NCBI GenBank assembly: GCA_964036195.1
Contig: OZ038460.1
Coordinates: forward strand, 18,541,504-18,605,503
DNA from: Sphaerolaimus hirsutus
Lineage: Eukaryota; Nematoda; Chromadorea; Monhysterida; Sphaerolaimidae
DNA: 64,000 bases
Direction: 5' to 3'
The position numbers were made by a program, and so were the translations under genes. A model generated the notes under the pieces. The model searched no databases and was not told the origin of the DNA. It worked only from the letters and a program-made list of their open reading frames with translations. This document shows positions 1 through 43,430 of the stretch, piece after piece. Each line of letters starts with the position of its first letter. Positions within the stretch are counted from its first letter, which is position 1.

Positions 1-200
1 AAATCGTGATTTCCGAGCCAAAATCGAAGCGATATACGTTATATTGCAATATCGGCGACCTTAAGGGATAGTTTCATGTATTTTACGAACCGCATTGCTC
101 TCGGTGGATGTGCGTCGATGCGGCTGAACTTTAAAAAATCTATCGGGCGTACGCCCTTCCCTACAAATCTGTAGGGAGTATTAAATCTGGCCCCAGGGCA
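1..200. repeat. End of a GGGGCCAG-type inverted-repeat element
   Basis: Reading inward on the minus strand from about 197 the sequence begins GGGGCCAGATTTAATA and then carries a short hairpin (CCCTACAAATCTGTAGGG, 157-174). This matches in layout the ends of the element at 22880-24225, which begin GGTGCCCGATTTAATTTG and carry a CCCGACAAGTTTGTCGGG hairpin. The rest of the element lies outside the window. The mirror position in the right palindrome arm (beyond about 21620) lacks it. Confidence 0.5.
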
Positions 201-317
201 CTTTGTATGTCACATGACGCTTTCCACGCCCGAAATTCACCTTCACGAAATTTTCACTTTTCAAATGGCCGAAATATCACATGACATTCTACAAGAAAAA
301 ACAACCCCCCCCCCAAG

Positions 318-2471
318 GTAATCGACGACACCTGGGTCGACCTACGCGAAAACGACGATTTCGCCTGCCTGCGGCACCCTATTAAGGCGCTCGACAGGCC
401 CCTTAAAATGCCCAATGGCGCCTTAGATGTCTACGTGGCGCTGTGGTACAAAAGGGGCCAGCCGGTCATGGGCAGGGTTTGGAAAGATGCCAGGGGCAAA
501 ATTGCAGCCAGTTTTGGGTGTGATGGGGTGGAACATTGCAGCGGAGTGGGCAGTTTGCAGGTGGGCAATTTTTGCTTGTTTTGGGATGCATTCCAAATTT
601 GAGTCATTTTGATTTTCTTGATTTTTGAGACAATTGAACCCACAATTTGCGTACAAGTCAACTACATTCTATTCAGTACATCGCGTACCGCGTTCAGTTA
701 TGCTACGATTACAGCTCGACGTAAAATTACAGTGAACAATTCCATCGCAAAATTGATTACATGAAAGTGTATGATGATACAGGTCTGCAATCTTTCATGG
801 AGAATATGTATATCAATACCTTCATTGTGTCCCAGAGTCATCGTCCACGGTCACCGCTATTTGATTGTGAAAATTCGAAAATTTCGATTTTACGTTAAAA
901 TTTTATGCCAGCTGAAGAAAAGTCAATTCTACGCCAGGTGATTGCATGCAATGACATAGCGTAGGATTGATTTTTCTTCAGCTGGCGTAAAATTTCAACG
1001 TAAAATCGAAATTTTTGAATTTTCAGAATCGAAAAGAAGTGACTGTGTACGATGACCCTTGGTCACAATGAAGGTATTGATTAACGTATTGTCCATGAAA
1101 AACTACAGACCTGTATCATCACCCACTTTCATGTAATCAATTTTGCGATGGAATTTTACGCTGGAAGTTTACGCCCAAGCTGTAATCGCTACATTACGTA
1201 CTAAAAAACTAAGATTCGGTGCTGGCGCCAAAGCAACAAGTGCCATGGCGCTCCTGGGGGCAGTCCCAAGCCCTGTAAAGTGTAAAATAAAGTGTCAAAT
1301 GTTAAGTCAAATGCAAAGTCAAATGTAAAGTGTCAAATGTAAAGTAGTGTCAATTGTGTATCCAAATCTTATTTTTCGACATAAGATTTGGATACAAAAA
1401 CATAAGATTTGGATACAAAAAAATAAGATTTGGATACACAATTGACAGTTTACTTCACATTTGACACTTTACTTTACATTGCATTTGACTTTACACTTGA
1501 CACCTTATCTTGACAATTTTTACTTTGACACTTTACAGGGCTTGGGATTGCCACATGGTGCGATTTTTCTGCGACACTGTTTTCTTTGGCGCTAGCACCA
1601 AATACTATTTTTTTTGTACGCAACCTGTCAACTAGTGTGTGTGGCGAGCTGACGATCCATTTTTCTATATTCTGGTGGGATATGGTAACTCTATTGTCAA
1701 CTGTATCTACAATCCATCAAACCAAGTCGACTAATCCTAAAAAACCCTCCCAGGTTCTCTACTACAACCCGGCGAGCGCCGGGTTCACAATGAAATGGCT
1801 GCCATACAGCCAGGCGGCGAAAAACGAGTGGAATAAGGCGGAGTTTCGCGCTGTGCACGTCAAGGGCTGCGCCCCCTGCATTGTTACAGATGGGGGGTTT
1901 GAGTGGCTGGGCAAAGTGAGTATGGGTGTTGGGTGCACCCCCCCCCAATCCAATGTGAAGGTGTGGAAGGATTTGATAAATTTGTCAAATGCCCTTGAAC
2001 GTAAAAGTTGTAAAGTGATAATGCGCTGGAAGTAAAGTGACAGGTAAATGCATTTGTCACTGAAAGCACTCCACTTTGAAGTTTGCTGAAGGTATAACTT
2101 ATCACCTATTCACACATCTTTATGTCACGCGTCTATTCGCGGAATTGGCCACTAGAGCAAGTCTCAGACCATGTCAAATTCCCTGTGACATGTCAGATGT
2201 CAGGCGGTATCAAAAGTCGTGTAAAATACCAAACGATCAGTTAGAAAAACATAAAATTTGACATTTTACACAACTTTTCACACTTTCTCTGATATTTTAC
2301 ATTTCACAGAGTCTGGGACTGGCACCAGAAAGGTCACTTTCCAAACCTTACAACCCCCCCCAGGTGCTGCTGCACGAAGAGCAGGCGAGCTACAGCGCCA
2401 ACGGCAAAGAGAAAGTCTTCACCGGGCCGGCGGTGGCCAATTTCCTCGTGCTCTGTCGCAAAGACAAGTAG
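318..2471 (+). CDS. VALWYK-module protein, 3' exons (left copy)
   Basis: Three exons are visible: 318-560, 1754-1915 and 2364-2471 (TAG at 2469). All junctions are phase 0 with AG acceptors (AAG, CAG, CAG) and donors GTGGGC and GTGAGT. They encode the C-terminal 170 residues of the protein encoded in full at 26138-20156 (minus): a second [16 protein letters not shown] module, then [20 protein letters not shown] and the C-terminus LVLCRKDK. The first exon differs from the mirror copy at two bases I could see (one silent GCC/GCA, one Arg/Ser). The 5' exons lie off the left edge. The first intron holds two insertions (697-1194, 1256-1551) that the mirror intron lacks, so it is 1193 nt against 404 nt. 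Function unknown; similar proteins of unknown role exist in nematodes (from memory). Confidence 0.8.
697..1194. mobile_element. Long inverted-repeat MITE (TACGATTACAGC ends)
   Basis: The two halves are reverse complements over more than 200 bp: TACGATTACAGCTCGACGTA near 703 pairs with the sequence ending near 1192. A second copy lies at 22948-23374 with ends GCGATAACAGCTCGACGTAA. There is no coding capacity. It is absent from the mirror intron in the right arm, so it inserted after the arms separated. Confidence 0.75.
1256..1551. mobile_element. H-family hairpin element
   Basis: Its ends are GGGGGCAGTCCCAAGCCCTG and the reverse complement of TACAGGGCTTGGGATTGCC. Between them are repeats of GTAAAGTGTCAAATG and an internal duplicated ATAAGATTTGGATACA motif (1355-1442). 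It belongs to the most abundant element family in the window, with at least 15 copies. It is absent from the mirror intron. Confidence 0.75.
2159..2325. mobile_element. H-family hairpin element
   Basis: The left half reads CTCAGACCATGTCAAATTCC and the right half ends TCTGGGACTGGCACC. The stem is made of GTCAAA/TTTGAC repeats. It is shared with the right arm (about 20298-20470), so it predates the duplication. It sits in the last intron of the VALWYK-module gene. Confidence 0.7.
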
Positions 2472-3217
2472 AATGTCATGTCAAGTGGGGTGATGCACTA
2501 CTGATTGGGGGCTGGATGTGTGTAGGGCGTGTGTGAAGGGCGGGGGTTCTGTGGGGGTAGGGATGGATTAGATTACACCACCATCTGATTGTTGACACCT
2601 TGCTTGCTTTGTTGACGCCTTCTTGTTTTGGAATTTTATTGGAAAATGCGGCTTTTCCGGATGTCAAGTCACGTTTACATTGAAATGACAGATATCTCAA
2701 TCACATTTTCGGATTTTGAAACCATCCATAATGCTAGGCAACCCCTTATATAAATAACATAACTTTCTGAATAATCGATCCCTCCAATCTGAAAGCCACA
2801 GCTGTCCGACCTATGCATGCACAGAAAAGTCCACACCCCGAACTCCACAAAACCCCTGGTGAAGTGTGAAGTGTGAAGTGGTGATCGAATGTGAATGTAA
2901 AATGATGAAGTTTGTTGTGGTTTGGTACCCAGTCAGCCCGCTCTTGTGAGAAAAAATGTAGAAATGATTTATTTATTTGGGTAATATTCGAATTTAAATT
3001 GCAATATTCTGGATTTTAGCGTAAAAATCTAGGTTCATTTGTAAATGTGTAAAGCAATCGAATTCACTCGTACTTTCTATCAGAAACTCGTAATTCGAAC
3101 GTCATAGGTGGAAAACCCAACTTGCGTAACCCGAAATGTGACTTTTCTAAATTGTCTCCACAGTCCAAATCTACATAAATTTCCCTACAATAAATACACA
3201 TCTAAATATCCAGACAC

Positions 3218-6200
3218 TCAGGCCTTCGCTTTTTGCAAACGTTTCGCCACATCGTTCCAATTGATAACGTTCCAAATGTGCTTAACGTAATCGGGCCGAA
3301 CGTTTTTGTATTGCAGATAGTAGGCGTGTTCCCAAACGTCGATGCCGAGCAGCGGCACCAGGCCTGGGCAATTAAAATTGGCAAGTATTTAAAGAAGCGA
3401 ACTAGTTGACTGCATTTTCAGTGTTAAGCGTGTCAAAATGTGAATTGTGTGTGAATGAAAATGTGAATGATTTGTCATTCACACGAATTGTCCTACGGAA
3501 ATATTTTCAATTATTGGGAGCTGATTTTGGCCCGTTGACAACGACAGGAAATGTCAACTGTTGCCAATCCCAGACCCTGTAAAATGTCAAATGTCACGCA
3601 AAGTGTCAAAAGTCATGTAAAATTCTCGGTAAAATGGCAAACGTAAGTATGCCATTCTCCGGGAATTTTACACGACTTTTGACACATTTTACAGGGTTTG
3701 GGACTGCCCCCAGGTTCCGATCCCAATTCAATGCTACGAGTAACACCGGTATTTACATCCACTATAGTAAAACGAGCACAGTACCCCCGGCTCCAAAATC
3801 CTGGACAATTAAGTCCCTAGTAGGAGCTTTCACACACTTCCAATAAAAAACCGACCAGTAGTCGGCTGCAGGGGGTCCTGGTTTTGGCACTGTGCCAGCC
3901 TCAAACGTCCAGCTTGGGGGTCAAAGCCGAGCCACCCCCAGCCGCTGCCCTGCACGCCGACGCACAGCGCAGAAAGTTTAGTTTTCATGTTGTCCACGGT
4001 GCCAAAATCGCGCTTGATCGCCGCTAGGAGGTCGCCTGTTTTTTTGAAGGGGTGATTTTTGGTGATGATCTAGGTGCCGGGAAATGGAGTGAGCTATAAA
4101 ATATATAAGGAAAAAAGCGTCATGGCACAGACATTAGTTTTCACCGTGACTTCTGTGAAAACTGCAATGGCGTCATGACGACATTCAGCCTACTCTTATT
4201 GTATGCTATAGGTGTTTTAGTTTTCAAATTTAAACTTTCATCAATTAAAATTTAGATTAAATGAAATCGTTCAACTCTGATGATTAATTTGCATTTGAAA
4301 AATGTCAGTTTTCACCGTAGTCACGGTGAAAACTAGTGTGTGTGGGCACATTCCATCCTGCAAGTGACAATTCAGCAGTGGTCAGTTGAGAAGGAAAGTG
4401 CTCAATGGCAAGTAGGAGCAATTCAGTGATCTATGCGTTTGCCAAATTTTTTGTTTATCGGCAGTGAACCGGAGTGTGCGAATTTGTATACTTACTCTAT
4501 CCTGGAAAACAGACGCTTGCAAGTGGCTTGGGTGACACTTTGCAGCTGTTGTAACAGACGCCATGCGAGCCTGCACATCATCACTGCGCCTGTGCGCTTT
4601 CATTACAAATAACTCAGTCCCCCAACATCTGCATTTACTTGAGTGCACATTTCCAATTTCGCGTGCGGCGCGGCCTTAGCGTTTTTCACGCACCTGTTTT
4701 CACAATCGCATACTTTTTTCGCAGTAAAATGTGTCAATTTGCGGTAAGAATTTTAATAGCACATAATCACACAACTTTTTTATTTATGGTCGGATTTTGT
4801 TCAAATCAATTTTATCTGAAAGCACTTTGTCTGCTGATTACAGCGCACATGTTGCTTTTTTGATAAAATGTTGTTTACTATGAATCGTAACAGTCAGTCA
4901 CAAGTCAAGAAGAAATGAAAAAGCACATTTTGAAAATTGTACACACATGAAAACTGGAAATGCGGCATGTGGTTCTAACAAACAAGATGGCATAACCACA
5001 GTAGGGCCTTTGATCTGCGCCGATCTGACCCCTCAAATACAAATGTAAAGACGAGGCAGCATAAACCATTCCAAGTGAACAGTAGTAAACCCATGTTCAC
5101 TTGGGTTGGGACACGTTTGAGTTTCCGATAAAGTTAAAATTTGTGCTCGATCGCGGGCATCCCGGGGAACTTGGCAGGCATCAAAAGATAGCCCCAACAT
5201 TTGTCTACAAGTTCCCTGGGACACCCCCCAGCTGAACCCCCTGTGGGCTGTGTAAATGGCCCACAGGGGGTTCAACCAGGGGGTGTCCCAGGGAACTTGT
5301 AGACAAATGTTGGGGCTATCTTTTGATGCCGGCCAAGTTCCCCAGGATGCCCGCGATTGAGCACAAATTTTAACTTTATCGGAAACTCAAACATGTCCCA
5401 ACCCAAGTGAACATGGGTTTAAATTACGGTGTAAAACAAACAAAAAAAGAGTTTCCCAAGCCACTGGCGGTAGGCGGAGTTTCCAGATATAGTAAGTAGC
5501 CACAACGGAGTGTGCAGCGCAATTGGATACAACCGTATTTTTCCGGTTAATGCCCGGCGCAAAAAGAGGATACAAAATTATTTCAAAATATTTACGTTAA
5601 AAAATTGACCTTAAACTTTTGTTGAAACCGAACCTTGAGGCTCGCCGCCCCCATCGGGTGAGAGGTTTTGCCAGAAAATCGTATGGTTGATGTGGCCGCC
5701 GCCGTTGAACTTCAGCGCGCCCTGCAGTGAAATCATCTTTTTCACGTCGCCTGCGTGTGTGATTTGAGGTTATTTTGGGTAATTATGGAGGAGAAATTCT
5801 AATAAAAAAAAGAAGCTTGTCAAGTGACAAATGTCAGGTGAAGTTACAAAAATGAACTGGAGTGTTACAAATTGACAACTTAAGCTGAAACGGCATACGA
5901 TACTCCAGGGCCGTATCCAGGGGGGGGGCGGGGGGGGGCTGCAGCCCCCCCCCTTCCCGGGCCGAGACCAGAAAGTGACCGGAAAATGTGACTTTTTCAA
6001 CGTCAGCATAAAACTTTTTGCGCGCGAGCGCGCATTCTTCACCAGACATAGGTATTATCATTAGATTTGCTCCATGTGGCCGTAATTCGTTATAAATACA
6101 CTCAATGTTGCGCTTTTTGCTGTTTTCGGATGTATATTTACATACATTTACAGCGTTCCATGGCGCTGGCGCCAACACCAATGGCGCCATGGCGTGGCGC

Positions 6201-6811
6201 CAACCAATGGCGCCAGCGCCATGGCGCGATTCCGCCACTATGTAGCTAAAATTTTAGGGGGGGGGGCTCAGCCCCCCCCCTCGCCGGCCTCCGTAAACAA
6301 GCAGCCCCCCCCGCTCAAAAATCCTGGATACGTCCCTGCGATACTCTCTGATATTTACCTTGCCAGAATTGGAAATTTTGCAATTACGACTGACATTGTT
6401 GATTGATTTTTTTTGCTTCAAAAAGTAACGATCAAATCAAATGTCAAAAAACGTAGAACAACGTCAATCTCGAAAGTCAATTAACAGGAATGCCCGGTGC
6501 ACTTTCGCTGCGCACTCATTCTTGTCACTCTAAACCACGTACCGAACCAACTTCCAGTAATCGATACGGTAGACAACCTATAACTATCCCACACCGGAAA
6601 AAACAGTCCACACCGACACCGTAACCCCCCACCTTTGTGCACAGCCTCCTTCATCTGTTCCTCGGCCACGTTCAAGTTGGCCACGTAGGTGGCGTGGTGC
6701 TTTGCGTGGTGCAGCTGCATGATCTCGGCCGAGATGGTGGGTTCGAGCGCGCCGTAGTCGTACGAGAGGTCGGGCAAAGTGTGCTTGTGCAGCGCGCTCG
6801 TCACGCATAGG
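3218..6811 (-). CDS. sod-2: Mitochondrial Mn superoxide dismutase (left copy)
   Basis: The enzyme converts superoxide to oxygen and hydrogen peroxide in the mitochondrial matrix. Exons on the minus strand are 6811-6633, 5750-5634, 4035-3856 and 3363-3218 (TGA), with the same lengths (179, 117, 180, 146) and phases as the copy at 16115-19398. The metal ligands are present: His in [11 protein letters not shown], His in [11 protein letters not shown], and Asp and His in [19 protein letters not shown] and NVRPDYV are also intact. The first listed exon starts after an AG acceptor (phase 2), so an upstream exon with the start codon and transit peptide must exist; I could not find it in 6812-9005. 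The second intron (4036-5633) contains a MULE-like insertion not present in the other copy. No disabling change was seen in the four exons. Confidence 0.9.
3567..3713. mobile_element. H-family hairpin inside an older TA-type element
   Basis: The halves AATCCCAGACCCTGTAAAAT and TTTTACAGGGTTTGGGACTG pair across a loop near 3640. The flanks (GTTGACAACGACAGGAAATG on the left, GGTTCCGATCCCAATTC on the right) look like a TA-inserting GTTGACA element split by it. The same arrangement is present at 18898-19043, so it predates the duplication. Confidence 0.75.
4124..4352. mobile_element. TAGTTTTCACCGTGAC inverted-repeat MITE
   Basis: The termini are TTAGTTTTCACCGTGAC and its complement GTCACGGTGAAAACTAG. 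The interior is AT-rich with GTATGCTATAGGTGTTTTAG. A mirror copy lies in the right arm (17515-18470, split by the element at 17652-18437) and another copy at 57862-58092. Confidence 0.75.
4480..5505. mobile_element. MULE-like non-autonomous element (left arm only)
   Basis: This 1026-bp insertion is flanked by a 10-bp direct repeat CGGAGTGTGC (4470-4479 and 5506-5515). The right arm has one uninterrupted CGGAGTGTGC at the mirror site (about 17385-17396). The ends form imperfect inverted repeats of about 50 bp: TACTTACTCTATCCTGGAAA...AGTGGCTTGGG against TACTTACTATATCTGGAAAC...AGTGGCTTGGG. A 9-11 bp duplication with long terminal repeats is the Mutator-like pattern. There is no transposase. A separate hairpin is nested at 5093-5405. 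Confidence 0.8.
5093..5405. repeat. Near-perfect ~155-bp-arm hairpin nested in the MULE-like element
   Basis: The left arm (TGTTCACTTGGGTTGGGACA...) mirrors the right arm ending TGTCCCAACCCAAGTGAACA, with only scattered mismatches. The centre is CCACAGGGGGTTCAACC. A weakly related sequence lies at 11410-11640 in the palindrome spacer. Confidence 0.8.
5906..6338 (+). mobile_element. hAT-type MITE, CAGGGCCGTATCC family (left arm)
   Basis: The termini are CAGGGCCGTATCCAGG and CCTGGATACGTCCCTG. The target-site duplication is CGATACTC (5898-5905 and 6339-6346), exactly 8 bp as for hAT transposons. The interior has poly-G/poly-C tracts, GCGCGCGAGCGCGC and GGCGCCATGG palindromes. Another copy lies in the right arm at 16569-16976, at a different target about 19 bp away. 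Confidence 0.9.
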
Positions 6812-9005
6812 CTGGGGGGGTTGGGTATACCATATTTTGGAGTGTTTTGGGTTTTTTTCGTTGTTTTTTAAAACCTGGGTCGTTGAAAAGGGTTTTTTTT
6901 TCATCGTAGTGTGGTGGAAATGTGCGGAGAGGGTGATAATTTTGTTGCAACTTAACTATGAATTGTTTTATAAAACTGCCATACCTGGCTTCATTTATGT
7001 CCGGTCCAGAAAAAATCCGTGTTAAAAAAGCATTCAAAAATAATTTTAAAATGCCGGTCATTCCAAGATATTTTGAAAAGTAAAATATTAGTTATGCGAA
7101 ATAGTGAGATATTACTTTTGCACTAGGTATTTTGGGCGCAAGCGTTCAATTTCACATCCACATTACCATAGGTGGTTGTTTAAATTGGTTTTGAAGCATT
7201 TTTAGCGCAAAAGCTTCTATTCGTGCATGCTCATTCATGTTCATTGTGCAACAATAACTATGGCCGTGTCTAGGGTTGGAAAAAAAACGTTTTTTTTTAA
7301 CTCGATGTTTTTTAAAAAAAAAAAACGTTTTTTTATAAAAAAAAACGTTTTTAAAAAAAAAAACGTTTTTTTTAAAAGCTCCCAGATATGACCTAGTGTC
7401 AACATATATCAGGTATATCAGACACTGGCAATACTCTGTGATGTTAAATATGACCATACAATGGCTGTGGAGCCATGGGATAGCATTATAAGTGGTGATT
7501 TGTGTCAAAAATATCCATTTTTCGTCGACATATCGTTCGTATATCGCCTTATAGTCAAATGTTTGTGACTTCAGGTAAAGTTTGGCACGGAATGGTGATC
7601 AAACAAGGTTATAAAAGGAGGTTGTTACTTTGGGAGTGAAGTTACACACTGTGGAGGTACATGGAAGCACATTACCTCAATATTATATATTACAGCAACA
7701 TATGTCGGCTTATACACCCATGGTAGCACATAGAAATGGATGTTTTGATACTAAAAATGCAACAAAACCAATGAAAACAACCACCAATGTCAATTTGTGT
7801 GTGAAATTGCGCGCTTGCGCGCAAAAATTTTGCAAAATACCTAGTGCTTAGTACTAAAAATTTCGGCCGATGTTTTTTTTAAAAAAAAACGTTTTTTTTT
7901 TAAAAAAAACGTTTAAAAAAAAACATCGGCCAACCCTAGCCGTGTCACCCAAATTCGACAAAATAAAATCAGTAAAATACCGTGCCGGCGGCATCGCGAC
8001 TTTTATCCGAGCAAGACACAGCGACATTATACGCGGTGTTTCAGGAAAACGACCAACGGAACAAAGAAATACTTCGTGATTTCGTAAACAGGAGGCGGAG
8101 TTTTCTTTTTATGAAAATAGGTTACGGTAGTGTTTAGTTAATAGTAAATCGTCATTTTTCTTACGTGTTGAATGCGCCCAGTAAAGTGCGTAAATTGAAC
8201 GAAAAGTTTCGCTAATGACAACAAAATGAATTTTTGTCAGCTTTACATTCTGAGTTGAATTTTCGATTTTGAAATATAAACTTTGGATGTTTCATTACGA
8301 ATTTCCTTACTCTTATGTTCTTTATAATGTTTTCATTTGGATATTATTTTGTTTTAGCCAAAAATTTGATTTGCAAAATATGCCCGTTTTTTTAGGATTA
8401 AAGCTTTCATGTGTTTGTGATGTCTAAATCGAAGTCATTGTGTCGCCGTTTCTGAAAATGCATTTGCATTTTTTATTTAAAAAACCGAATCCAACAGTTT
8501 TTGTATCCAAAATATTTTCAGCGGATACAAGTGCACCTTCTGTGCTATCCAAATCGTACACTATGAAAGTTACTCCGATGTTTATGTCCCAAAACATCCA
8601 AAGTCGTAACTTCACTTCTCTTAAGTTTCGTATTTGTTTTATCAGTAGCAACATAAGCTATTCAATCGCAATTTTCTGTCATGAAGTGAGCCAAAAATTT
8701 AGCACAGATTCACAATTTCTTCGCTTTATCAACTTTGGCAAATTGCCAAAAAGAGACATAACATCAGTTCAAACTCAATTCATTTTTTGGCACATTGCCG
8801 AAAATTCCAGTTTTTCGTGACACGATTTCGAAAAGACCTTGCCCCCCTTTCATTATTCAGTCGCACTCCACTGTTTTGCTCGTTGAAAGTTTGAAACAAA
8901 GTAACTTGAAAAGAACTCGCATTTAAATCGACCGCGGTCGCCGGAAGATCGAAAATTGGATTAAAAAAACAAGACAATTAAAATTTAGAACTCGACAAGA
9001 TCGCA
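6812..9005. promoter_or_regulatory. Divergent SOD2 / LSM14 intergenic region (left)
   Basis: SOD2 runs leftward from 6811 and LSM14 rightward from 9006, so both promoters and the missing SOD2 leader exon should lie here. Outside the hAT at 7271-7938 the sequence is shared with 13810-16114. A GGCGGAGTTTT motif at 8093 is conserved in the mirror at about 15495. I could not identify a TATA box or the leader exon with confidence. Confidence 0.4.
7271..7938 (+). mobile_element. hAT-type MITE, TAGGGTTGG / AACGTTTTTTT family
   Basis: The termini are TAGGGTTGG and CCAACCCTA. The 8-bp duplication is GCCGTGTC (7263-7270 and 7939-7946). The right arm has the empty site (GGGTGACACGGCCATAG, about 15652-15668). 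Subterminal tracts of AACG and poly-T/poly-A form long stems. Further copies are at 29734-30355 and 32765-33425. Confidence 0.92.
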
Positions 9006-9768
9006 ATGGCATCGCCGAAAGCGCCGCAAACGCCCTATTTGGGGTCGAGAATAAGTTTGATTTCCAAGGCTGAAATTCGATACGAGGGCATCCTGTACAC
9101 TGTGGACACTACGGAACAGACTATCGCTTTGGCTAAAGGTAGGTTTATTGAGCTAATTTTTCAATTCTGGGAAAACTGGGTTGCGTTAGGTACGTGTGTA
9201 TTGTTACGAGAAGTGCCGGTCGCGGAAAATTTACGTTGCAACTTTTCATTTGTAAAGTTGCGGAGCTGGCCACTGAGTTTTCCATGTTTTTTTTTATGAT
9301 GGCATCTGTCGAAGATCTCGAAAATGGGTTCGACATGTCGGGGATATCGGAGTTGGGTGCGATATGTAATATCGGTGACTTCAAACTTTTGACGTTTAAT
9401 TTGTGACCAGTGAAAGTTTCTTACATTCAGGGGTTGGGTTGTTCAAATTATAGGGTTGTTTTTCAAAGATTTTTCTTTATGGTCGTTGAAAACCACCCAT
9501 AAATAACCACCCATTTGTCCACCCATAAATAGCAACCTACCAAACTCCGCCTTTCCCCTAATTCCCCAACCCCCCGCCCCCAGTGAAATCCTACGGGACG
9601 GAGGATCGCCCCACAGACAACCCAGTGCCGGCCAGGGACGAGGTGTTCGAGTACATCATATTCAAGGCGACCGATATCAAGGACCTCATCGTCAGGGAGA
9701 CGCCCAAGCCCGTGCCCACGTTGGCGGGCGGGTTGCCCTACGATCCGGCTATTGTTTCTGTGAGCCAG
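9006..9768 (+). CDS. car-1: LSM14/RAP55/CAR-1 N-terminal exons (left copy, 3' end missing)
   Basis: LSM14 proteins are translational repressors of P-bodies and germ granules that bind RNA and decapping factors. Exon 1 is 9006-9138 (ATG at 9006; [20 protein letters not shown], then [10 protein letters not shown]) with donor GTAGGT. Exon 2 is 9584-9768 (acceptor CCCCAG, donor GTGGGT), ending in [14 protein letters not shown]. Together they make the whole LSm domain plus the linker, including [20 protein letters not shown] and ATDIKDLIV, which closely match nematode CAR-1. The FDF and TFG boxes and RGG region expected downstream are not seen before the gap at 10454 or in the palindrome spacer, so this copy is truncated or continues elsewhere. 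SOD2 is head-to-head upstream. Confidence 0.9.
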
Positions 9769-9822
9769 GTGGGTAGGGGGAGGGTTGATTGTGGGTCTGT
9801 GGCTTGTGATTGTGGTTGGTTT

Positions 9823-10028
9823 GGGGGTCCGGACGATATGACTTTTCGATATCGATATTCGATATTTTTTCTGAAACTCTATTCGATATCGATACTATAT
9901 GTAACCTCGATATCGATATACGACAATGGTCGATATTCAGTTATGCTGATGATTTCAAAATTTTCGATATTGATATTCGATATGAAAAAAACTGTCGATA
10001 TTCGATACGATATATCGTCTGAACCCTA
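9823..10028. mobile_element. hAT-type MITE rich in TATCGATA (LSM14 intron 2)
   Basis: The left end is GGGGGTCCGGACGATATG and the right end ATATCGTCTGAACCCTA. The flanking duplication is GTTGGTTT (9815-9822 and 10029-10036). The interior is almost entirely TCGATAT/GATATTCGA runs. The same insertion is present at the mirror position (12257-12996), so it predates the duplication. Relatives lie at 11820-11938, 31245-32018 and about 34923-34992. Confidence 0.8.
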
Positions 10029-10453
10029 GTTGGTTTGGGGGTTATTTGGCGTATTCGCGTGTTTTTGGGGCGATGTATCATTCACAGCTTTCATTATATC
10101 TACAACGGAAATGTTGACGGTGGTGACGTAAATGTTTAGACCCCACCCAAAAATTTTTTTTTTAGCTAGCTATATCTCCGGAGGAGCGATTTACTATCTA
10201 TATAAACCCCCGCAGGGGTCCAAATCTACAAAACCCCTGCCCTCACGGGTAGGGAAGTGTTAAATGTCATTCAAAATGTGAAAAATGTCAAATTCCCAGT
10301 ATAATATAACAACATTTTACACCACTTACCACACTTCAAATGAAATTTCATATAGCCAGAGTGGGGTCTGGAATACATGGCCGCAGTAGAGTATGGGGTG
10401 AACTAACCCTCAACCCCCTACAAGACCCCTGCCCCCTCACCCCAAATACCCCC

Positions 10454-10653
10454 NNNNNNNNNNNNNNNNNNNNNNNNNNNNNNNNNNNNNNNNNNNNNNN
10501 NNNNNNNNNNNNNNNNNNNNNNNNNNNNNNNNNNNNNNNNNNNNNNNNNNNNNNNNNNNNNNNNNNNNNNNNNNNNNNNNNNNNNNNNNNNNNNNNNNNN
10601 NNNNNNNNNNNNNNNNNNNNNNNNNNNNNNNNNNNNNNNNNNNNNNNNNNNNN
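10454..10653. other. Assembly gap (200 N)
   Basis: The run is exactly 200 N, the same length as the gap at 50654-50853, so the size is probably a placeholder. It lies about 0.7 kb from the palindrome centre. Confidence 0.98.
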
Positions 10654-10655
10654 CC

Positions 10656-11281
10656 CCGTGGCTGCGCGATCTCGACGACGACATCAACTTTGAGCAGCGC
10701 TTGAGGCAACCTGTGAGTTTAAACAGCATTTTTTAAGTTTTATGGTAACGTTTTACCGTACGGTACAGTGTGGTAAGAATACAAAGTGCATTATCCATCA
10801 TTTTCAGTTCCGTCTCTACATGGATAATGCCAAAGTGCACCGGACCAAAGCTGTAAAAAAGGTGCTGCACAAGAACCGGGCACTTTTCCGGGCGCTAAAA
10901 ACGCCGGCCTGCAGTCCGGACTGCAATCCGGTGGCGCTCCCAAACCCTGTAAAATGCTCTGCAAATGTCAAATGTCATGAAAAGTGTCAAAAGCCATGTA
11001 AAATGCTGGGTAAAATGGTGTAACGTCATTTTACCCAGCATTTTACATGACTTTTGACACTTTTCACAACATTTGACGCTTACAGGGCATTTTACAGGGT
11101 CTGAAACTGCCCCCTGATTGAAAACATCTGGAGTTCGATCGACCGGCGTGTCTCCCGCGACAATTGCACCAACGTGCACATGCTGATCGATCGCGTTAGG
11201 GAGGGCTGGTCGACGCTGACAGTCGACGAGTGCAAACGGCAGATTAAAAAAATGCCCGACCACCTCAAAGAGGTCAGCTGA
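10656..11281 (+). pseudogene. Tc1/mariner transposase fragment, DD37E spacing
   Basis: The reading frame 10808-10933 gives YMDNAKVHRTKAVKKV and TPACSPDCNPV. It resumes at 11117 with IENIWSSIDRRVSRDN and ends at a TGA (11279-11281) after KKMPDHLKEVS. These are the second catalytic Asp (MDNAKVH) and the NPxIENxW motif with the catalytic Glu. Counting across the insertion, 37 residues separate Asp and Glu (DD37E, a pattern described for some mosquito ITm elements). An H-family hairpin (10934-11114, flanked by TG) splits NPV from IEN. An upstream frame, 10656-10712 (PWLRDLDDDINFEQRLRQP), is followed by GTGAGT and may be an earlier exon. The N-terminus is lost in the gap. Confidence 0.8.
10934..11114. 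mobile_element. H-family hairpin inserted in the transposase
   Basis: The halves are GCGCTCCCAAACCCTGTAAA and TTTTACAGGGTCTGAAACTG, with TG on both flanks (10932-10933 and 11115-11116). Removing the insert and one TG restores the NPV-IEN reading frame, which fixes its borders. Confidence 0.85.
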
Positions 11282-12256
11282 AGCGCGGATTTCACACTAA
11301 ATACTAGTGTGATGTTTTGTTTGGGTTTTAGTGATTTTGTTTGTGATATTTTGTGAATTTTTCTTGCTTTTTTTGCACGTCCGGGCGGTCCCCGGGCGTT
11401 TTTTTAAAACCGTCTCCGTGTCCGAACCCAAGTGAGCCATGAAATTTTGTATAAAAAAAAGTGTGGGCCGCTTGCGCGGCCCACATGGCGTTATACTGGG
11501 GGGTGTTGCATGGCGTTTTTAGAGAAATGTTAGGGCTTTATTTTGATACCGGCCAAAATTTTCTGAGGTATATAGTTTCGGCGTAATAAAGTTTTTTCTA
11601 AAAATTTGCGAAGTGTCCGAAGCCAAGGAAACACGGGTGTATATAAGATTTGTGCATTTATACAAGATTTGATGCTGCCGCAAGTGCTGAAACAACAATA
11701 CCTGTCATCTGAGAACAAAGTGCGCACTTGCGCGCAAAAATTGGTAAAATTGCTTATGAAATCGCCTTCTAAAAGTGCCATTCCTGGCCTATTTGAAGTC
11801 AGGCCCAGTGAGGATAGAATATCGAAAATATCGAAAAAATGGTCGATATTCGATATTTTTCAAAATTTTCGATATCGATATTCGATATGAAAAAATAGTC
11901 GATATCCGATATTCGATACGATATATCGTCCCAACCCTAGAAGTGTGGTAAGCTGTGTGAAATGTTGTTCTATTATTCCGGAATTTGACATTTTTCACAT
12001 TTTGAATGACATTTAACACTTCCCTACCCGTGAGGGCAGGGGTTTTGTAGATTTGAACCCCTGCGGGGGTTCATATAGATAGTAAATCGCTCCTCCGGAG
12101 GGATAGATACCTAGCTAATAAAAAAAATATTTTTTTCGGTGGGGTCTTAACATTTATGTCACCAGCGTCAACATTTCCGTTGTATTTAGATATGAAAGCT
12201 GTGAATGATACATCGCCCCAAAACACGCGAATACGCCACATAACCCCCAAACCAAC

Positions 12257-12996
12257 TAGTGTTCAGACGATATCAGGGGTCTCGAATGGGGGGGGGGGGT
12301 TGGGGGGGGGTTACCCCTCCCCAAACCGCCCAGCTATCTATCTATCCCGGAGGCCGCTCAGCTATCTATCTATCCCGGAGGCAAAATTTTGGGCTACTAC
12401 CCCCTAAACCCCCCCCCCCCCAATCGCCCAGCTATCTACCTATCTGGAGCAATTTTTCAGAAACTATACCCCAATTTTCGCTCAAAATCGCTATTTTTCA
12501 TACCTATATATAGATTTTCACCTCCAAAATCACTAGTTCATGCATCTAACTGCCTATTTTCAGCTATTTTAAGTACTATATGCTCTTGTATACCCATTTT
12601 GAGCTATTTTACACCTACTTTTAGCGATTTTTCTCCCTTTTCTTCCTTCTATGCCCCGAAAAAAGCCTATATATCAAACCACCACAACCCCCCCCCCCCC
12701 AAACCCCCCCCCAGAAAATTTTTCAGCTATCTATCCCTCCGGAGGAGCGATTTGCTATCTATCCAACCACTCGGAGGGTCAAAATTCAAGATACCCCTGG
12801 ACGATATATCGTATAGAACATCGACTGTTTCTTTCATATCGAATATCAATATCGAAAATTTTGAAATCATCATCATCATTGAATATCGATCATTTTCGAA
12901 TATCGATATCGAGGTTACATATCGTATCGATATCGAATAGAGTTCCAGAAAAAATATCGAATATCGATATCGAAAAGTCATATCGTCCGGACCCCC
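12257..12996. mobile_element. TATCGATA-rich hAT MITE, split by another hAT
   Basis: The termini are TAGTGTTCAGACGATAT and ATATCGTCCGGACCCCC, flanked by AAACCAAC (12249-12256 and 12997-13004). It is the orthologue of 9823-10028. A CAGGGGTCTC-family hAT (12274-12799) lies inside it. Confidence 0.8.
12274..12799 (+). mobile_element. hAT-type element, CAGGGGTCTC family
   Basis: The ends are CAGGGGTCTC and the complement of GATACCCCTG. The 8-bp duplication is GACGATAT (12266-12273 and 12800-12807). The interior carries CAGCTATCTATCTATCCCGG repeats and long C/G tracts. It is absent from the left arm. Other copies are at 35198-35693, 40713-41979 and 43431-43941. Fragments of the same interior (CGGAGGAGCGATTTACTATC) lie at about 10180-10250 and 12020-12110 in both arms. 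Confidence 0.9.
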
Positions 12997-13052
12997 AAAC
13001 CAACCCCAGAATCACAAGCCACAACCCCACAATCAACCCTCCCCCTACCCAC

Positions 13053-13809
13053 CTGGCTCACAGAAACAATAGCCGGGTCGTAGGGCAACCCGCCGCCAAG
13101 GTGGGCACGGGCTTGGGCGTCTCCCTGACGATCAGATCCTTGATATCGGTCGCCTTGAATATGATGTACTCGAACACCTCGTCCCTGGCCGGCACTGGGT
13201 TGCTCCGTGGGGCGATCCTCCGTCCCGTAGAATTTTACTGGGGGGTTGGGGGGTTAGGGGTAAGGCGGAGTTTGGTATTCATGGAAAAGCGTGTTTTTCC
13301 AACGACCTTTAAGAACGATCTTAAAAATCGCTGAAAAACAACCCTACAATTTACCGCTTAATAAAGAAACTTTCAGTTTCACTTATCACAAATTAAAAGT
13401 TAAACGTGGAAACGTTTTAAGTTATCGATATTACACATCGCCCCCAATTTCGATAACCCCGACATATCGACCACATTTTCGATATCCTCATCATTAAAAA
13501 AAAACGAAAAACTCAAGCAGTGGCCAGCTCCGCAACTTTACAAATGAAAAAAGTTGCAAATCAAGTGTTAAGTGCCACGTAAAATTTTCCGCCACAGGTA
13601 CTTCTCGTAACAATACACACGCACCTAACGCAACCCAGTTTTCCCAGAATTGAAAAATTAGCTCAATAAACCTCACCTTTAGCCAAGGCAATAGTCTGTT
13701 CCGTAGTGTCCACAGTGTACAGTATGCCCTCGTATCGAATTTCAGCCTTGGAAATCAAACTTATTCTCGACCCCAAATAGGGCGTTTGCGGCGCTTTCGG
13801 CGATGCCAT
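13053..13809 (-). CDS. car-1: LSM14/CAR-1 N-terminal exons (right copy, with paired frameshifts)
   Basis: Exon 1 is 13809-13677 (ATG at 13809) and exon 2 is 13237-13053, mirror images of 9006-9138 and 9584-9768. Exon 1 is intact. In exon 2 the sequence after GATCGCCCCAC reads GGAGC where the left copy reads AGAC (+1, near 13207), and GGCGGCGGG replaces GGCGGGCGGG (-1, near 13095). The two shifts cancel and no stop arises between them, so about 37 codons of the LSm-domain end ([19 protein letters not shown] in the left copy) are replaced by an unrelated Arg/Gly/Gln-rich stretch. Either this copy is decaying or the bases are assembly errors. As in the left copy, the 3' exons are not seen. Confidence 0.8.
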
Positions 13810-16114
13810 TGCGATCTTCCGAGGTTCTAAATTTTAATTGTTTTTGTTTTTTAAATCCAATTTTCGATCTTCCGGCGACCGCGGTCGATTTAAATGCGAG
13901 TTCTTTTCAAGTTACTTCGTTTCAACCTTTCAACGAGCAAAACAGTGGAGTGCGACTGAATAATGAAAGGGGGGCAAGGTCTTTTCGAAATCGTGTCACG
14001 AAAAACTGGAATTTTCGGCAATGTGCCAAAAAATGAATTGAGTTTGAACAGAAGTTATGTCTCTTTTTGGCAACTTGCCAAAGTTGATAAAGCGAAGAAA
14101 TTGTGAATCTGTGCTAAATTTTTGGCTGACTTTATGACAGAAAATTGCGATTGAATAGCTAATGTTGCTACTGATAAAACGAATACGAAACCTAAGAGAA
14201 GTGAAGTTACGACTTTGGATGTTTTCGGACATAAACATCGGAGTAACTTTCATGGTGTACGATTTGGATAGCACAGAAGGTGCACTTGGGGACTTCCGTT
14301 CCAAAAGTTCACAAGCGCCAAATCCAGAAAAATCGAGTTAGCTGTGGATTCGACATCCACGTATAATTCTGCCCATTTTGGTAAAAAAATCAGTGTTATA
14401 GTCCATTTCGTTCCCGAGATACAGTGGTACCGTTTTTCAGAAAAATCACAATTTTCATATCAAAAGTGCACATATCCATCTCAGATCCCCTATGAAAAAC
14501 AGGACTTTCATTTCGTAAGTGCACATATCCATGTCAGACCACCGGAGTTTCATTTCATAAGTGCACATATCCAAAAAATAGTTTCATTTCCAAAAGTGCA
14601 CCGTGCTTCGGATCGCTCGCGAAGAGCCGGCCGGATTTCCCATACAAAATAAAGTTTCATTTCCAAATGTGCATACATGAATTTCCAAATTTATTTTGCT
14701 CTATAAATCGAGTACAGGTATAAATATAGATCTGAAAATTTAGGTTTGTGTACTTCTCGAAAGGGCTTCTCAGTGGTGTAATTGGTTTTGCCCTGCGATG
14801 CACCGTTAGGAAGTTATTTACATTTCAAGTTCAGATTTTCAAATTTACTCATTTTGGGTGGTTTACAAAATATGACATAACTCCCAAAATATTTACCAGC
14901 CAACAAAATTTAGGGACACAAAAATTGTAGACAAATGTCCAAGATATCTGAAAAGTGCAGGGCAAGCTTTGTTGCCCAAACATGGCGCTGCCGGGCCAGC
15001 GCCAAACTTTAAAATGCAATTTTGAAAATTCAAAAAATCTGGATATGTTTACTTTTGGAATGAAAGTCCCCACTTGTATACGCTGAAAATATTTTGGATA
15101 CAAAAACTGTTGGATTCGATTTTTTTAAAAAGAAATGAAAATGCATTTTCAGAAACGGCGACACAATGACTTCGATTCAGTCATCACAAACACATGAAAG
15201 CTTTAATCCTAAAAAACGGGCATCTTTTGCAAATTAAATTTTTGGCTAAAACAGATTAATATCCAAATGAAAACAATATAAAGAACATAAGAGTAAGGAA
15301 ATTCGTAATGAAACATCCAAAGTTTATACTTCAGAATCGGAAATTCAACTCAGAAGTAAAGCTGGAAAAAATTCATTTTGTTGTCACTAGCGAAACTTTT
15401 CGTTCCATTTACGCACGTTACTGGGCGCATTCAACACGTAAGAAAAATGACGATTTACTATTAACTAAACACTACCGTAACCTGTTTTCATAAAAAGAAA
15501 ACTCCGCCTCCTGTTTACGAAATCACGAAGTATTTCTTTCTTCCGTTGGTCGTTTTCCTGAAACACCGCGTAAAATGTCGCTGTGTCTTGCTCGGATGAA
15601 AGTCGCGATGCCGCCGGCACGGTATTTTACTGATTTTATTTTGTCGAATTTGGGTGACACGGCCATAGTTATTGTTGCACAATGAACATGAATGGGCATG
15701 CACAAATAGAAGCTTTTGCGCTAAAAATGCTTCAAAACCAATTAAAACAACCACCAATGGTAATGTGCATGTGAAATTGAACGCTTGCGCCCAAAATACC
15801 TAGTGCAAAAGTAATATCTCACTATTTCGCATAACTAATATTTTACTTTTCAAAATATCTTGGAATGATCGGCATTTTAAAATTATTTTTGAATGCTTTT
15901 TTTAACACGGATTTTTTCCGGACCGGACATAAATGAAGCCAGGTATGGTAGTTTTATATAACAATTTATACTTAAGTTGCAACAAAATTATCACCCTCTC
16001 CGCACATTTCCACCACACTACGATGGAAAACACTACCTTTTTCAACAACCCAGGTTTTAAAAAAACAACGAAAAAACCCAAAACACTCCAAAATATGGTA
16101 TACCCCCCCCCCAG
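13810..16114. promoter_or_regulatory. Divergent LSM14 / SOD2 intergenic region (right)
   Basis: This is the mirror of 6812-9005, with the transposon at 14288-15071 added and the hAT of the left arm absent. It contains the conserved AAAACTCCGCC motif at about 15493-15503. The SOD2 leader exon is expected here; it was not identified. Confidence 0.4.
14288..15071. mobile_element. GGGGACTT inverted-repeat element, 4-bp duplication (copy 1)
   Basis: The termini are GGGGACTTCCGTTCCAAAAG and the complement of TTTTGGAATGAAAGTCCCC. The target duplication is ACTT (14284-14287 and 15072-15075). The left arm has the empty site GTGCACTTGTAT in reverse complement, near 8528-8540. The interior carries repeats of AAGTGCACATATCCA and TTTCATTTC. 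It has no ORF. I cannot assign a superfamily. Confidence 0.85.
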
Positions 16115-19100
16115 CCTATGCGTGACGAGCGCGCTGCACAAGCACACTTTGCCGGACCTGTCGTACGACTACGGCGCGCTCGAACCCACCATTTCTGCCG
16201 AGATCATGCAGCTGCACCACGCAAAGCACCACGCCACCTACGTGGCCAACTTGAACGTGGCCGAGGAACAGATGAAGGAGGCTGTGCACAAAGGTGGGGG
16301 GTTACGGTGTCGGTGTGGACTGTTTTTCCGGTGTGGGATGTTTGTTGGTTGTCTACCGTATCGATTACTGGAAGTTTGTACGGTACGTGGTTTAGAGTGA
16401 CAAGAATGAGTGCGCAGAGAAAGTGCACCGGGCATTCCTGTTAATTGACTTTCGAGATTGACGTTGTTCTACGTTTTTTTGACATTTGGATTGATCGTTA
16501 CTTTTTGAAGCCAAAAAATCAATCAACAATGTCAGTCGTAATTGCAAAATTTCCAATTTCTGGCAAGGCAGGGACGTATCCAGGATTTTTGAGCGGGGGG
16601 GGGGGGGCTGCTTGTTTACGGAGGCCGGCGAGGGGGGGGGGCCCCTAAAATTTTAGCTACATAGTGGCGGAATGGGGCCATGGCGCTGGCGCCATTAGTA
16701 GGCGCCACGCCATGGCGCCATTGGCGTTGGCGTCAGCGCCATGGAACGCTGTATTTGAATGTAAATTTACATACAAAACAGCAAAAAGCACAACAACAAA
16801 GAGCCACATGGAGCAAATCTGATGATAGTACCTTATGTCTGGTGAAGAATGCGCGCTTGCGCGCAAAAATTTTTACGCTGGCGTTGAAAAAGTCCCATTT
16901 TCCGGCCATTTTCTGGTCTCGCCCCGGGAGGGGGGGGGCTGCAGCCCCCCCCGCCCCCCCCCTGGATACGGCCCTGTGGCAAGGTAAATATCACAGTATC
17001 GTATGCCGTTTCAGCTTAAGTTGTCAATTTGTAACACTCCAGTTCATATTTGTAACTTCACTTGACAATTGTCACTTGACAAGCTTCTCTTTTTTATTAG
17101 AATTTCTCCTCCAAAATTACCCAAAAAACCTAAGATCACATACGCAGGCGACGTGAAAAAGATGATTTCACTGCAGGGCGCGCTGAAGTTCAACGGCGGC
17201 GGCCACATCAACCATACGATTTTCTGGCAAAACCTCTCACCCGATGGGGGCGGCGAGCCTCAAGGTTCGGTTTCAACAAGAATTTAATGTCAATTTTTCA
17301 ACGTAAATATTTTGAAATAATTTTGCATCCTCTTTTTGCGCCGGGCATTAACCGGAAAAATACGGCTGTATCCAATTGCGCTGCACACTCCGGTTCACTG
17401 CCGATAAACTAAAAATTTGGCAAACGTATAAATCACTGAATTGCTCCTACTTGCCATTGAGCACTTTCCTTCTCAACTGGCCACTGCTGAATTGTCACTT
17501 GCAGGATGGAATGTGCCTACACACTAGTTTTCACCGTGACTTCGGTGAAAACTGACATTTTTTCAAATGCAAATTAATCATCACAGTGGAACGATTTCAT
17601 TTAATCTAAATTTTAATTAATGAAAGTTTAAATTTGAAAACTAAAACACATGGGGACACCATTCCAAAAGTTAACATATCCAGATTTTTCGATTTTTCAA
17701 AATCGCATTTTAAAGTTTGGCGCTGGCCCGGCAGCGCCATGTTTGGGCGACAAAGCTTGCCCTGCACTTTTCAGATATCTCGGACATTTGTCTACAATTT
17801 TTGTGTCCCTAAATTTTGTCGGCTGGTAGATATTTTGGGAGTTATGTCATATTTTGTAAACCACCCAAAATAAGGAGTAAATTTGAAAATTTGAACTTGA
17901 AATGTAAATAACTTCCTAACGGTGCATCGCAGGGCAAACCAATTACACCACTGAGAAGCCATTTTCGAGAAGTACACAAACCTGAATTTTCAGATCTATA
18001 TTTTTACCCGTACTCGATTTATAGAGCAAAATAAATTTGGAAATTCACGTATGCACATTTGGAAATGAAACTTTATTTTGTATGGGAAATCCGGCCGGCT
18101 CTTTCGCGAGCGATCCGGAGCACGCGTGCACTTTTGGAAATGAAACTATTTTTTGGATATGTGCACTTATGAAATGAAACTCCGGTGGTCCGACATGGAT
18201 ATGTGCACTTTCGATATGAAAGTTCTGTTTTTCATAGGGGATCTGAGATGGACGTGCACTTTCGATATGAAAATTGTGATTTTTCTGAAAAACGGTACCA
18301 CTGTATCTCGGGAACGAAATGGACTATAACACTGATTTTTTTACCAAAATGGGCAGAATTATACGTGGATGTCGAATCCACAGCTAACTCGATTTTTCTG
18401 GATTTGGCGCTTGTGAACTTTTGGAACGGAAGTCCCCACATATAGCATACAATAAGAGTAGGCTGAATTTTTTCTTTTTTTGCGAACTTTTTTCCTTATA
18501 TATTTCATAGCTCCCGCCATTTCCCGGCACCTAGATCATCACCAAAAATCATCCCTCCAAAAAAAAACAGGCGACCTCCTAGCGGCGATCAAGCGCGACT
18601 TCGGCACCGTGGACAACATGAAAACCAAACTTTCTGCGCTGTGCGTCGGCGTGCAGGGCAGCGGGTGGGGGTGGCTCGGCTTTGACCCCCAAGCTGGACG
18701 TTTGAGGCTGGCACAGTGCCAGAACCAGGACCCCCTACAGCCGACTACTGGTCAGTTTTTTTATTGGAAGTGTGTGAAAGCCCCTACTAGGGACTTAATT
18801 GTTCATGATTTTGGAGCCGGGGGTACTGTGCTCGTTTTACTATAGTGGATGTAAATACTGGTGTTACTCGTAGCGTTGAATTGGGATCGGAACCTGGGGG
18901 CAGTCCCAAACCCTGTAAAATGTGTCAAAAGTCGTGTAAAATTCCTGGAGAATGGCAAACTTACGTTTGCCATTTTACCGAGAATTTTACATGACTTTTG
19001 ACACTTTGCGTGACATTTGACATTTTACAGGGTCTGGTATTGGCAACAGTTGACATTTCCTGTCGTTGTCAACAGGCCAAAATCACCTCCCAATAATTGA

Positions 19101-19398
19101 AAATATTTCCGTAGGACAATTTGTGTGAATGACAAATCATTCACATGTTCATTCACACACAATTCACATTTGACACGCTTAACACTGAAAATGCAGTTGA
19201 CATCCGTCAACTAGTTCGCTTCTTTAAATACTTGCCAATTTCAATTGCCCAGGCCTGGTGCCGCTGCTCGGCATCGACGTTTGGGAACACGCCTACTATC
19301 TGCAATACAAAAACGTTCGGCCCGATTACGTTAAGCACATTTGGAACGTTATCAATTGGAACGATGTGGCGAAACGTTTGCAAAAAGCGAAGGCCTGA
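16115..19398 (+). CDS. sod-2: Mitochondrial Mn superoxide dismutase (right copy)
   Basis: Exons are 16115-16293, 17148-17264, 18571-18750 and 19253-19398 (TGA at 19396). Donors are GTGGGG, GTTCGG and GTCAGT; acceptors are CCAG, GCAG, ACAG and CCAG; phases agree throughout. The product from exon 1 is about 206 residues, close to a mature Mn-SOD. Conserved blocks in order are [61 protein letters not shown], and [20 protein letters not shown] with all four metal ligands. The C-terminus is [10 protein letters not shown]. The start codon and transit peptide exon are upstream and unidentified. Intron 1 holds a hAT (16569-16976) and intron 2 the element at 17652-18437. LSM14 is divergent upstream. 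Confidence 0.93.
16569..16976 (-). mobile_element. hAT-type MITE, CAGGGCCGTATCC family (right arm)
   Basis: The termini are CAGGGACGTATCCAGG and CCTGGATACGGCCCTG. The 8-bp duplication is TGGCAAGG (16561-16568 and 16977-16984). It has the same family and same orientation relative to SOD2 as 5906-6338, but a different target site in the otherwise matching intron. Confidence 0.9.
17652..18437. mobile_element. GGGGACTT inverted-repeat element, 4-bp duplication (copy 2)
   Basis: It is in inverted orientation relative to copy 1. The ends are GGGGACACCATTCCAAAAG and CTTTTGGAACGGAAGTCCCC, and the duplication is ACAT (17648-17651 and 18438-18441). It splits an older TAGTTTTCACCGTGAC MITE whose left-arm orthologue (4124-4352) is intact, so it inserted after the arms separated. 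Confidence 0.85.
18898..19043. mobile_element. H-family hairpin (mirror of 3567-3713)
   Basis: The ends are GGGCAGTCCCAAACCCTG and TTTTACAGGGTCTGGTATTG. It lies in SOD2 intron 3. Confidence 0.75.
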
Positions 19399-20155
19399 GT
19401 GTCTGGATATTTAGATGTGCATTTATTGTAGGGAAATTTATGTAGATTTGGATTGTGGAGATGATTTAGAAAAATCGCATTTCGGGTTACGCAAGTTGGG
19501 TTTTTCACCTATGACGTTCGCAATTACGAGTTTCTGATAGAAAGTACGAGTGAATTCGACTGCTTTACACATTTACAAATGAACCTAGATTTTTACGCCA
19601 AAATCCACAATATTGCAATTTAATTCGAATATTACCTAGATAAATCAATCATTTCTACATTTATTTTTCTCACAAGAGCGGGCTGACTGGGTACCAAACC
19701 ACAACAAACTTCATCATTTTACATTCACATTCGATCACCACTTCACGTATCACACATCACACTTCACCAGGGGTTTTGTGGGGTTTGGGGTGTGGACTTT
19801 TCTGTGCATAGGTCGGATAGCTGTGGCTTTCGGATTATTCAGAAAGTTATGTTATTGATTTGTGGTATACGAGGGGTTGACTGACATTATGGATGGTTTC
19901 AAAATCCGAAAATGTGATTGAGATATCTGTCATTTCAATGTAAACGTGACTTGACATCCGGAAGTCTCATTTTCCGATAAAATTCGAAAGCAAGAAATCA
20001 ACAATCAGATGGTGGTGTAATGATCAAAAATTTTTTTGACACCCTGGTGTAATCAAATCCATCCCTACCACACAGAACCCCCGCCCTTCACACACGCCCT
20101 ACACACATCCGCCAGCCCCCAATCAGTAGTGCATCACCCCACTTGACATGACATT

Positions 20156-23100
20156 CTACTTGTCTTTGCGACAGAGCACGAGGAAATTGGCCACCGCCGG
20201 CCCGGTGAAGACTTTCTCTTTGCCGTTGGCGCTGTAGCTCGCCTGCTCTTCGTGCAGCAGCACCTGGGGGGGGGTTGATAAGGTTTGGAAAGTGACTGGT
20301 GTGGTGCCAGTCCTAGACCATGTGAAATGTAAAATGTCAGGGAAAGTGTGAAAAGTTGTGTAAAATGTCAAATTTTACTTTCTTACTGGTCGTTTGGCTT
20401 TTTACACGACTTTTGACGCTGCATGACATTTGACATGTTACAAGGAATTTGACATGGTTTGTAGCTGGCCCTTGGGGCCGGTACACGTGACCGGAAAGAT
20501 TTAAATGAGTGGAAAGTTATGTCACCAGCAAGTGAAGTGCTTTCGGTGACGAATGTGTTATTTACCTGTCACTTAACTTGCCGCGAATTATCACAAGTAG
20601 CATTTGACAACCTTAATCACATGCTTCTACACCTTCACATTGAACAGGTGGGGGGTGCACCCATCACCCATACTCACTTTGCCCAGCCACTCGAAACCCC
20701 CATCTGTAACTATGCAGGGGGCGCACCCCTTGACGTGCACAGCGCGAAACTCCGCCTTATTCCACTCGTTTTTCGCCGCCTGGCTGTAGGGCAGCCATTT
20801 CATTGTGAACCCGGCGCTAGCCGGGTTGTAGTACAGAACCTGGGATGGGAGGGGGTTCTTTGGGGGGGGGGGGGTTGTTGAATTGGTTTGATGGATTGAC
20901 AACGGAGTTACCGTATGCCATCGGGATAAAAACTTTCATTTTTCGGTCATCGGCTGCCCGCACACTGGTCGACAAGTTGCGTGACAAGTTTTTACAACAG
21001 ATGTTACCGTATTTTGATGAATAAAGTCGCATAAAAATTTGCGTAAAATTCTGACAGGTAAATATCTAGTGAGGGCGATGCTTATGCAATGTGATGAGAA
21101 AATTTTTTGTTCTTTTAGTAAATGTAATGTAGTGGACTTGTACGCAAATTGTAGGCTCACTCAGCTAACTCAAATCAATTTGACTCAAATCTGGAACCTC
21201 CCTCAAAAGGCGCGATTCCTCAAAACAAGCAAAAATTGCCCACCTGCAAACTGCCCACTCCGCTGCAATGTTCCACCCCATCACACCCAAAACTGGCTGC
21301 AATTTTGCCGCTGGCATCTTTCCAAACCCTGCCCATGACCGGCTGGCCCCTTTTGTACCACAGCGCCACGTAGACATCTAAGGCGCCATTGGGCATTTTA
21401 AGGGGCCTGTCGAGCGCCTTAATAGGGTGCCGCAGGCATGCGAAATCGTCGTTTTCGCGTAGGTCGACCCAGGTGTCGTCGATTACCTTGGGGGGGGGGA
21501 GATGTTTTTTCTTGTAGAATGTCATGTGATATTTCGGCCATTTGAAAAGTGAAAATTTCGTGAAGGTGATTTTCTGGCGTGGAAAGTGTCATGTGACATA
21601 CAAAGTGCCCGGAGGTATTTACCTACCTTTTCATTTCAGTTTTACATTTGAGACGTCATACCCAGGAGCTCTGGGACGGTGGTGGAATGGCGCCACCGAC
21701 AATGATTGACACCTATTTTCATAGCATCATTTCAATGGCGCCATTTTATTCAGAAAAATGGCGCTAATTTCATTTCTGGCACTTTCCATTACGTATGTGG
21801 AACTAGCCCCAGTGCCACTCTCAGACCCAGGAAATGTCAAATGTCGTATAAAATGCCAAATTGTTTATTATTTTTCTTACCGGTCGTTTGACCTTTTTCA
21901 TGACGTTTTAAATATTATATGACTTTGACAAGTTGCATGACATTTGACATTTCCAGGCCGGGAGTGGCCTCTTGGGCGCACAGCGTTTCCCAATCCCACA
22001 CGGTATTTCCCAACATACCGTATTACCTCGAAATACCCCCAGGTTGATTTATTATTTCGCCAGCAATGTTTGAGGGGGAATAATTCGAGGGGGATGATAC
22101 AGATCACAAACTGCGGAATTTGTGATGTAACATATCGACCTATGTTCACTTCACATTCAATTTTGGTGGGGGTAATTCGAGAGGGGGTGTTATTATTTCT
22201 GCAGCCAATATTGGGGGGTTTCGAGGGGGGGTTAATTAGAGGTAATACGGTATATTTTATCCCAACCCACCGGCGGTTCTGGCACGCTGCCAGGATCGCT
22301 GAAATCGCGCACGATGGTGTAGAATTCCTGGGTTTGCGCCTTGTCGGTGATCGTGTAGCCCTTGCCGCCGTAGGCGAACGCCGCCGCTTCTGTTTCCAGA
22401 TCGATGTTGCCCATGTAGCTGGGTGATTTTTTGGGAAATGGTATTTACTACCGTATTTACTTGAATCACCCCCCCCCCCCTCAAATAATTCTCTCCTGTT
22501 AGACAAATGAGGAAAATATACTCCCCCTCGAATAATTCCCCCTTAAGGCATATGGCCAAGTTGTTTTGTTCATTTTGATAGGAAAATTCTTGAAAAATTT
22601 GAAAGAAAGTTTAACCCGATTCAAAAAAACTTCGCGTCAAAATTTCACTTCGCTTTTCATGTCTCATTTCACTTCGCTTTTCACTTCTCATTACACTACT
22701 TCCCATTTCACTTTTCACTTCCCATTTCACTTCTCCACTGCGGAACTGGCACCAGAACTGCAATTTTACCAAAAAACAGCGCTGCTCACAGGTTTCCGTC
22801 CGGGGCGGGCACCTGTATGGGACAGGCGTTGCCGCAGCGCACGATGGCTAGGTGCGACTGCTTGCGTTCCTTCCTGCGGCCGGGTTGAATTTGCCCGACA
22901 AGTTTGTCGGGCAGCCCGATACTATTTTTTGGGATTATAGTGTCATTTATGCTGCGATAACAGCTCGACGTAAAATTCGACTCAGCGTAAAATTGATTTT
23001 TGAGCGTAAAATTAATTACAGGTGAATGGATAAAGATACGATCTTGTAATTTCAGTCAAAGAGAGTGCATTTATGCAGATGTTTCTTGTGTCGAAAGCTC

Positions 23101-30355: not shown

Positions 30356-30548
30356 GTGGCATATCAAGCGTATCAAGTGTACTTGTAACTTAACAAGTAA
30401 ATTTCTACATAAAAATACCCCTCATTTGATAAGATAATTATCACTTTACAGTTCACTTATGACATTTGCAAAGTGTGCCATTTTACATTGCTTTTGACAT
30501 TTGCATGACATTTGACATTTTACATGACTTGACACCCTGCATAACATT

Positions 30549-40704: not shown

Positions 40705-40712
40705 GTCTATTT

Positions 40713-43410: not shown

Positions 43411-43430
43411 AAACTTATTCCAGGGGTCTC

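Follow-up and report, generated by a model that had tools for sequence, protein, structure and literature searches.

Does the genome of the nematode Sphaerolaimus hirsutus carry a large palindrome with two facing SOD2 genes, or has the assembly placed two versions of a single locus on the same scaffold? The question is raised by a stretch of 64,000 nucleotides (C16:18541504-18605503, hereafter the window), for which the original prediction described a 22-kb palindrome at 190..21620, either a real inverted duplication with two functional SOD2 copies or two haplotypes joined head-to-head. In our analysis the window was compared together with 140 kb of upstream and 60 kb of downstream DNA (264 kb altogether), and searches were extended to the whole 348-Mb assembly of 762 contigs. 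Positions are those of the window, negative numbers lying upstream of its left edge.

Self-comparison of the window revealed inverted homology between 196-10337 and 11940-21610. The predicted mirror symmetry is present in the sequence, while its true span amounts to about 40 kb per arm, as the homology passes the left edge of the window to -30096 and reaches 50410 on the other side. The right-hand copy lies on one assembly piece, denoted here as B (10654..50653, minus strand), which is inverted and collinear with the left-hand DNA in 36 blocks (11940-50410 against 10337 to -30096), with 25,381 identities and 1,144 mismatches, giving 95.7% identity outside gaps. The alignment covers 27,093 of the 40,000 bases of B; insertions and unmatched ends make up the rest, with unaligned stretches of over 50 bases numbering 21 in B and 22 in the left copy. 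In 11 control comparisons (five other 40-kb stretches of the region on both strands, and this stretch on its wrong strand) the best chain held 890-2,816 identical bases as against 25,381 for the collinear inverted one, and therefore the inverted homology is far beyond chance. We also noticed a 0.6-kb repeat in three copies of about 94% identity (7338-7938, 29734-30346 and 32814-33425), each present in one haplotype and missing from the other at the matching place. Inverted chimeric reads formed when the DNA of a tiny animal is amplified, reported in a part of PMC13265396, might produce a palindrome as well; arms of such origin are expected to be nearly identical, and with 4.3% mismatches and many insertions between them this explanation was rejected as vanishingly improbable.

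All nine mirrored exon pairs that had been predicted were recovered: each left-arm exon interval was found again in the right-hand piece by local alignment with trimmed ends; the 1,548 aligned bases contained 35 mismatches, and two of the nine alignments had gaps. The three predicted genes are likewise present in both arms, and the one known only as the VALWYK-gene was identified as MFP2 (Pfam MFP2b, E 3e-20), a nematode sperm protein. Its exon stretches lie at 333..2471 on the plus strand of the left arm (the first two by match to MFP2b, and by alignment) and at 20156..21489 on the minus strand of B (by alignment). SOD2 exons occupy 3218..6790 on the minus strand of the left arm (Sod_Fe_N at 5659-5757 and 6631-6786, and Sod_Fe_C) and 16136..19398 on the plus strand of B (Sod_Fe_N and alignment). 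Pfam matches were obtained for six of seven stretches (MFP2b, Sod_Fe_N, Sod_Fe_C and the Scd6-like Sm domain); the seventh had been entered in a frame other than that of SOD2 exon 3218-3388, which we take to belong to SOD2 by its motif.

If some 40 kb were truly duplicated in inverted orientation, each chromosome would have two diverging SOD2 genes and two MFP2 genes, and part of the evidence agrees with this. The SOD2 N-terminal domain gave four matches in the genome, all of them in the two arms and none elsewhere, and 23 of the 24 exon mismatches counted fall at third codon positions; this count covers seven of the nine exons, the other two being MFP2 exon C, whose 4 mismatches lie at the edge, and LSM14 exon 2, which has 7. 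Such a pattern fits selection on both copies, and the constraint suits paralogs as well as alleles, which makes it not decisive.

The structure of the assembly speaks against real duplication. The 264-kb region contains four N gaps, each of 200 bases, and the three complete pieces between them measure 117,433, 24,521 and, in the case of B, exactly 40,000 bases. The 24,521-base piece (A, -14067..10453, first haplotype) carries in its right-hand part, 1..10453, MFP2 (+), SOD2 (-) and the 5' exons of LSM14 (+). One gap (10454..10653) separates the two copies on a single scaffold, leaving the arms without contiguous joining sequence in the assembly, and the second (50654..50853) follows B, so that real duplication would have N gaps at both junctions and a duplicate coextensive with one assembly piece. 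Beyond it begins piece C, on the plus strand, which fills 50854..64000 of the window and continues gapless to at least 124,000, the end of the DNA examined. Piece C opens, right beside the gap, within a tandem array (50863-54599) of about 22 copies of a 167-base unit, which may be the reason for the contig ending there. B also runs through a further 200-N gap, located at -14267..-14068 in the left copy, and because its segment 37381-37527 spans -14865..-14068 of the first haplotype, the second haplotype could guide closing of that gap. At the central end of B (10654-11939), the search of 264 kb yielded repeat matches only, and for this reason the falsity of the inner junction of B is not directly shown. 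Reading frames at 10690-11300 resemble, as judged by eye, a broken DDE transposase.

The gene in which B lies is equally informative. LSM14 exons 1 and 2 were found in both arms, at 9007..9765 on the plus strand of A (Pfam Scd6-like Sm domain, tblastn probe) and at 13056..13808 on the minus strand of B (domain match, alignment to A); a fifth, weaker match of the domain is located at C16:8264770. As no match to the FDF domain family was obtained in the S. hirsutus genome or in 14 control genomes, the later exons were sought by means of a tblastn probe and protein search. Both genome-wide protein-search matches, 87,292-87,357 and 88,364-88,489, are located on the plus strand of piece C, in the same orientation as exons 1 and 2 of A. 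With the first two exons in both arms and the later ones once, on C in the orientation of A, B interrupts one LSM14 gene, a split that counts against real duplication, and most likely A and C belong together, with B set between them. If A is joined to C, LSM14 exon 2, at 9583-9765 in A, is separated from the next exon detected by about 37 kb and the gap, a long distance, and further assembly errors within this interval are conceivable. In B, exon 2 (13056-13238) shows two one-base length differences from A, which shift some 35 codons relative to the reading frame of A and may reflect a defective allele or an error in the consensus. The DNA search around the later exons was dominated by a 1.7-kb repeat (best 40 of 5,661 candidates) and was uninformative on copy number; the repeat itself, at about 91618-93314, has copies 96-99% identical on many scaffolds among the matches listed and was probably active recently.

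The origin of B is best seen at its outer end. For the 7.9 kb adjoining the matched DNA on its upstream side, a second copy was found among the best 40 of 18,371 candidates scored, on two unplaced contigs, C545 (blocks between 11615 and 22067) and C290 (block 11243-11993), with 82-97% identity in the main blocks; further copies may exist beyond those scored. C290 is exactly 12,000 bases long, and the left haplotype is matched by C290 up to -30095 and by B from -30096, that is, at adjacent bases. The homology of B to the left-hand DNA ends 243 bases short of its outer end, and these bases (50411..50653) consist of repeat sequence not found in the first haplotype, with the remaining first bases of the repeat located at the end of C290. 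When the last 400 bases of C290 were linked in silico with the 700 bases that open the reverse complement of B, a repeat of about 250 bp spanned the join at positions 396-645, only its first 5 bases lying on C290 and the remainder on B. This join-spanning repeat has continuous matches of 87-91% at four other sites within the 264 kb, and a fifth, weaker match (73%) begins at join position 400; in the control join of C290 to the other end of B no such continuous repeat match was seen. Instead of a real junction with single-copy DNA, the outer boundary of B was found inside a repeat begun on C290, with the flank matching A at the next base. The end of B looks as if it had been cut in silico, 5 bases inside one repeat, and in our reading C290 and B are parts of a single second-haplotype contig that was severed at a round coordinate, within a repeat insertion missing from the first haplotype.

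The haplotype of the duplicate, itself a single assembly piece, extends onto C290 and C545. For a true 40-kb duplication this means that the second copy runs on past its supposed boundary, and the two contigs would have to represent either alleles of the flanking DNA or additional copies of it; taken with the gaps at both junctions and the split LSM14, real duplication with two functional SOD2 genes, as the original prediction had allowed, becomes very improbable. The inverted position of B relative to A might also suggest a heterozygous inversion, in which the second haplotype truly carries the 40 kb reversed and two real arrangements were wrongly merged. C290, however, adjoins reverse-complemented B in the orientation of A at the upstream end, and C545 is in the orientation of A too, which leaves this end without an inversion breakpoint and makes such an inversion a good deal less probable than even true duplication.

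Almost certainly, the palindrome is an assembly artefact, a false heterotype duplication in which a retained haplotig was placed backwards. The sequenced material would contain two divergent haplotypes at this locus, differing by about 4.3% mismatches and by insertions, both of them retained as separate contigs. The contig of the second haplotype would then have been cut, 12,000 bases being left unplaced as C290 and 40,000 becoming B, which would have been placed in reverse where a gap separates A from C, inside LSM14. The true order most likely leads from A to C through one LSM14, one SOD2 and one MFP2 locus, and SOD2 is likely to be a single locus with two alleles rather than two genes. We infer that real DNA joining A to B does not exist and that the cut originated from software or a curator. 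A program such as YaHS breaks contigs and assumes single-haplotype input (PMC9848053), and 200-N gaps presumably point to this program (cf. PMC12134992). The alternative of joined haplotypes is thus backed by the collinear inverted copy, the 40,000-base piece, the meeting point of C290 with B and the later LSM14 exons found once on C, with the correction that a second-haplotype piece appears to be inserted backwards inside LSM14 instead of two haplotypes being simply joined head-to-head. As it stands, the assembly leads to a count of two genes each for SOD2 and MFP2, and to an LSM14 that looks broken. The locus also gives a measure of haplotype divergence, and it illustrates that a misplaced haplotig is recognisable from sequence alone by round piece lengths, an insert-split gene and a repeat cut by the break.

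In real large chromosomal palindromes the same genes face each other from large inverted arms, and in this respect the S. hirsutus locus resembles them; it differs from them in the N gaps at both junctions, in the 4.3% mismatches and insertions between the arms and in the second copy continuing on unplaced contigs. False heterotype duplications, in the part of PMC9516828 that describes them, have among their hallmarks an assembly gap between the copies and haploid read depth on each of them; heterozygous k-mers at single-copy level are expected as well. The locus presented here shares with them both alleles of a divergent region on one scaffold of a haploid assembly, separated by a gap and with doubled genes, whereas its duplicate, known from the assembly letters only, has been trimmed to a round length and lies inverted within a gene.
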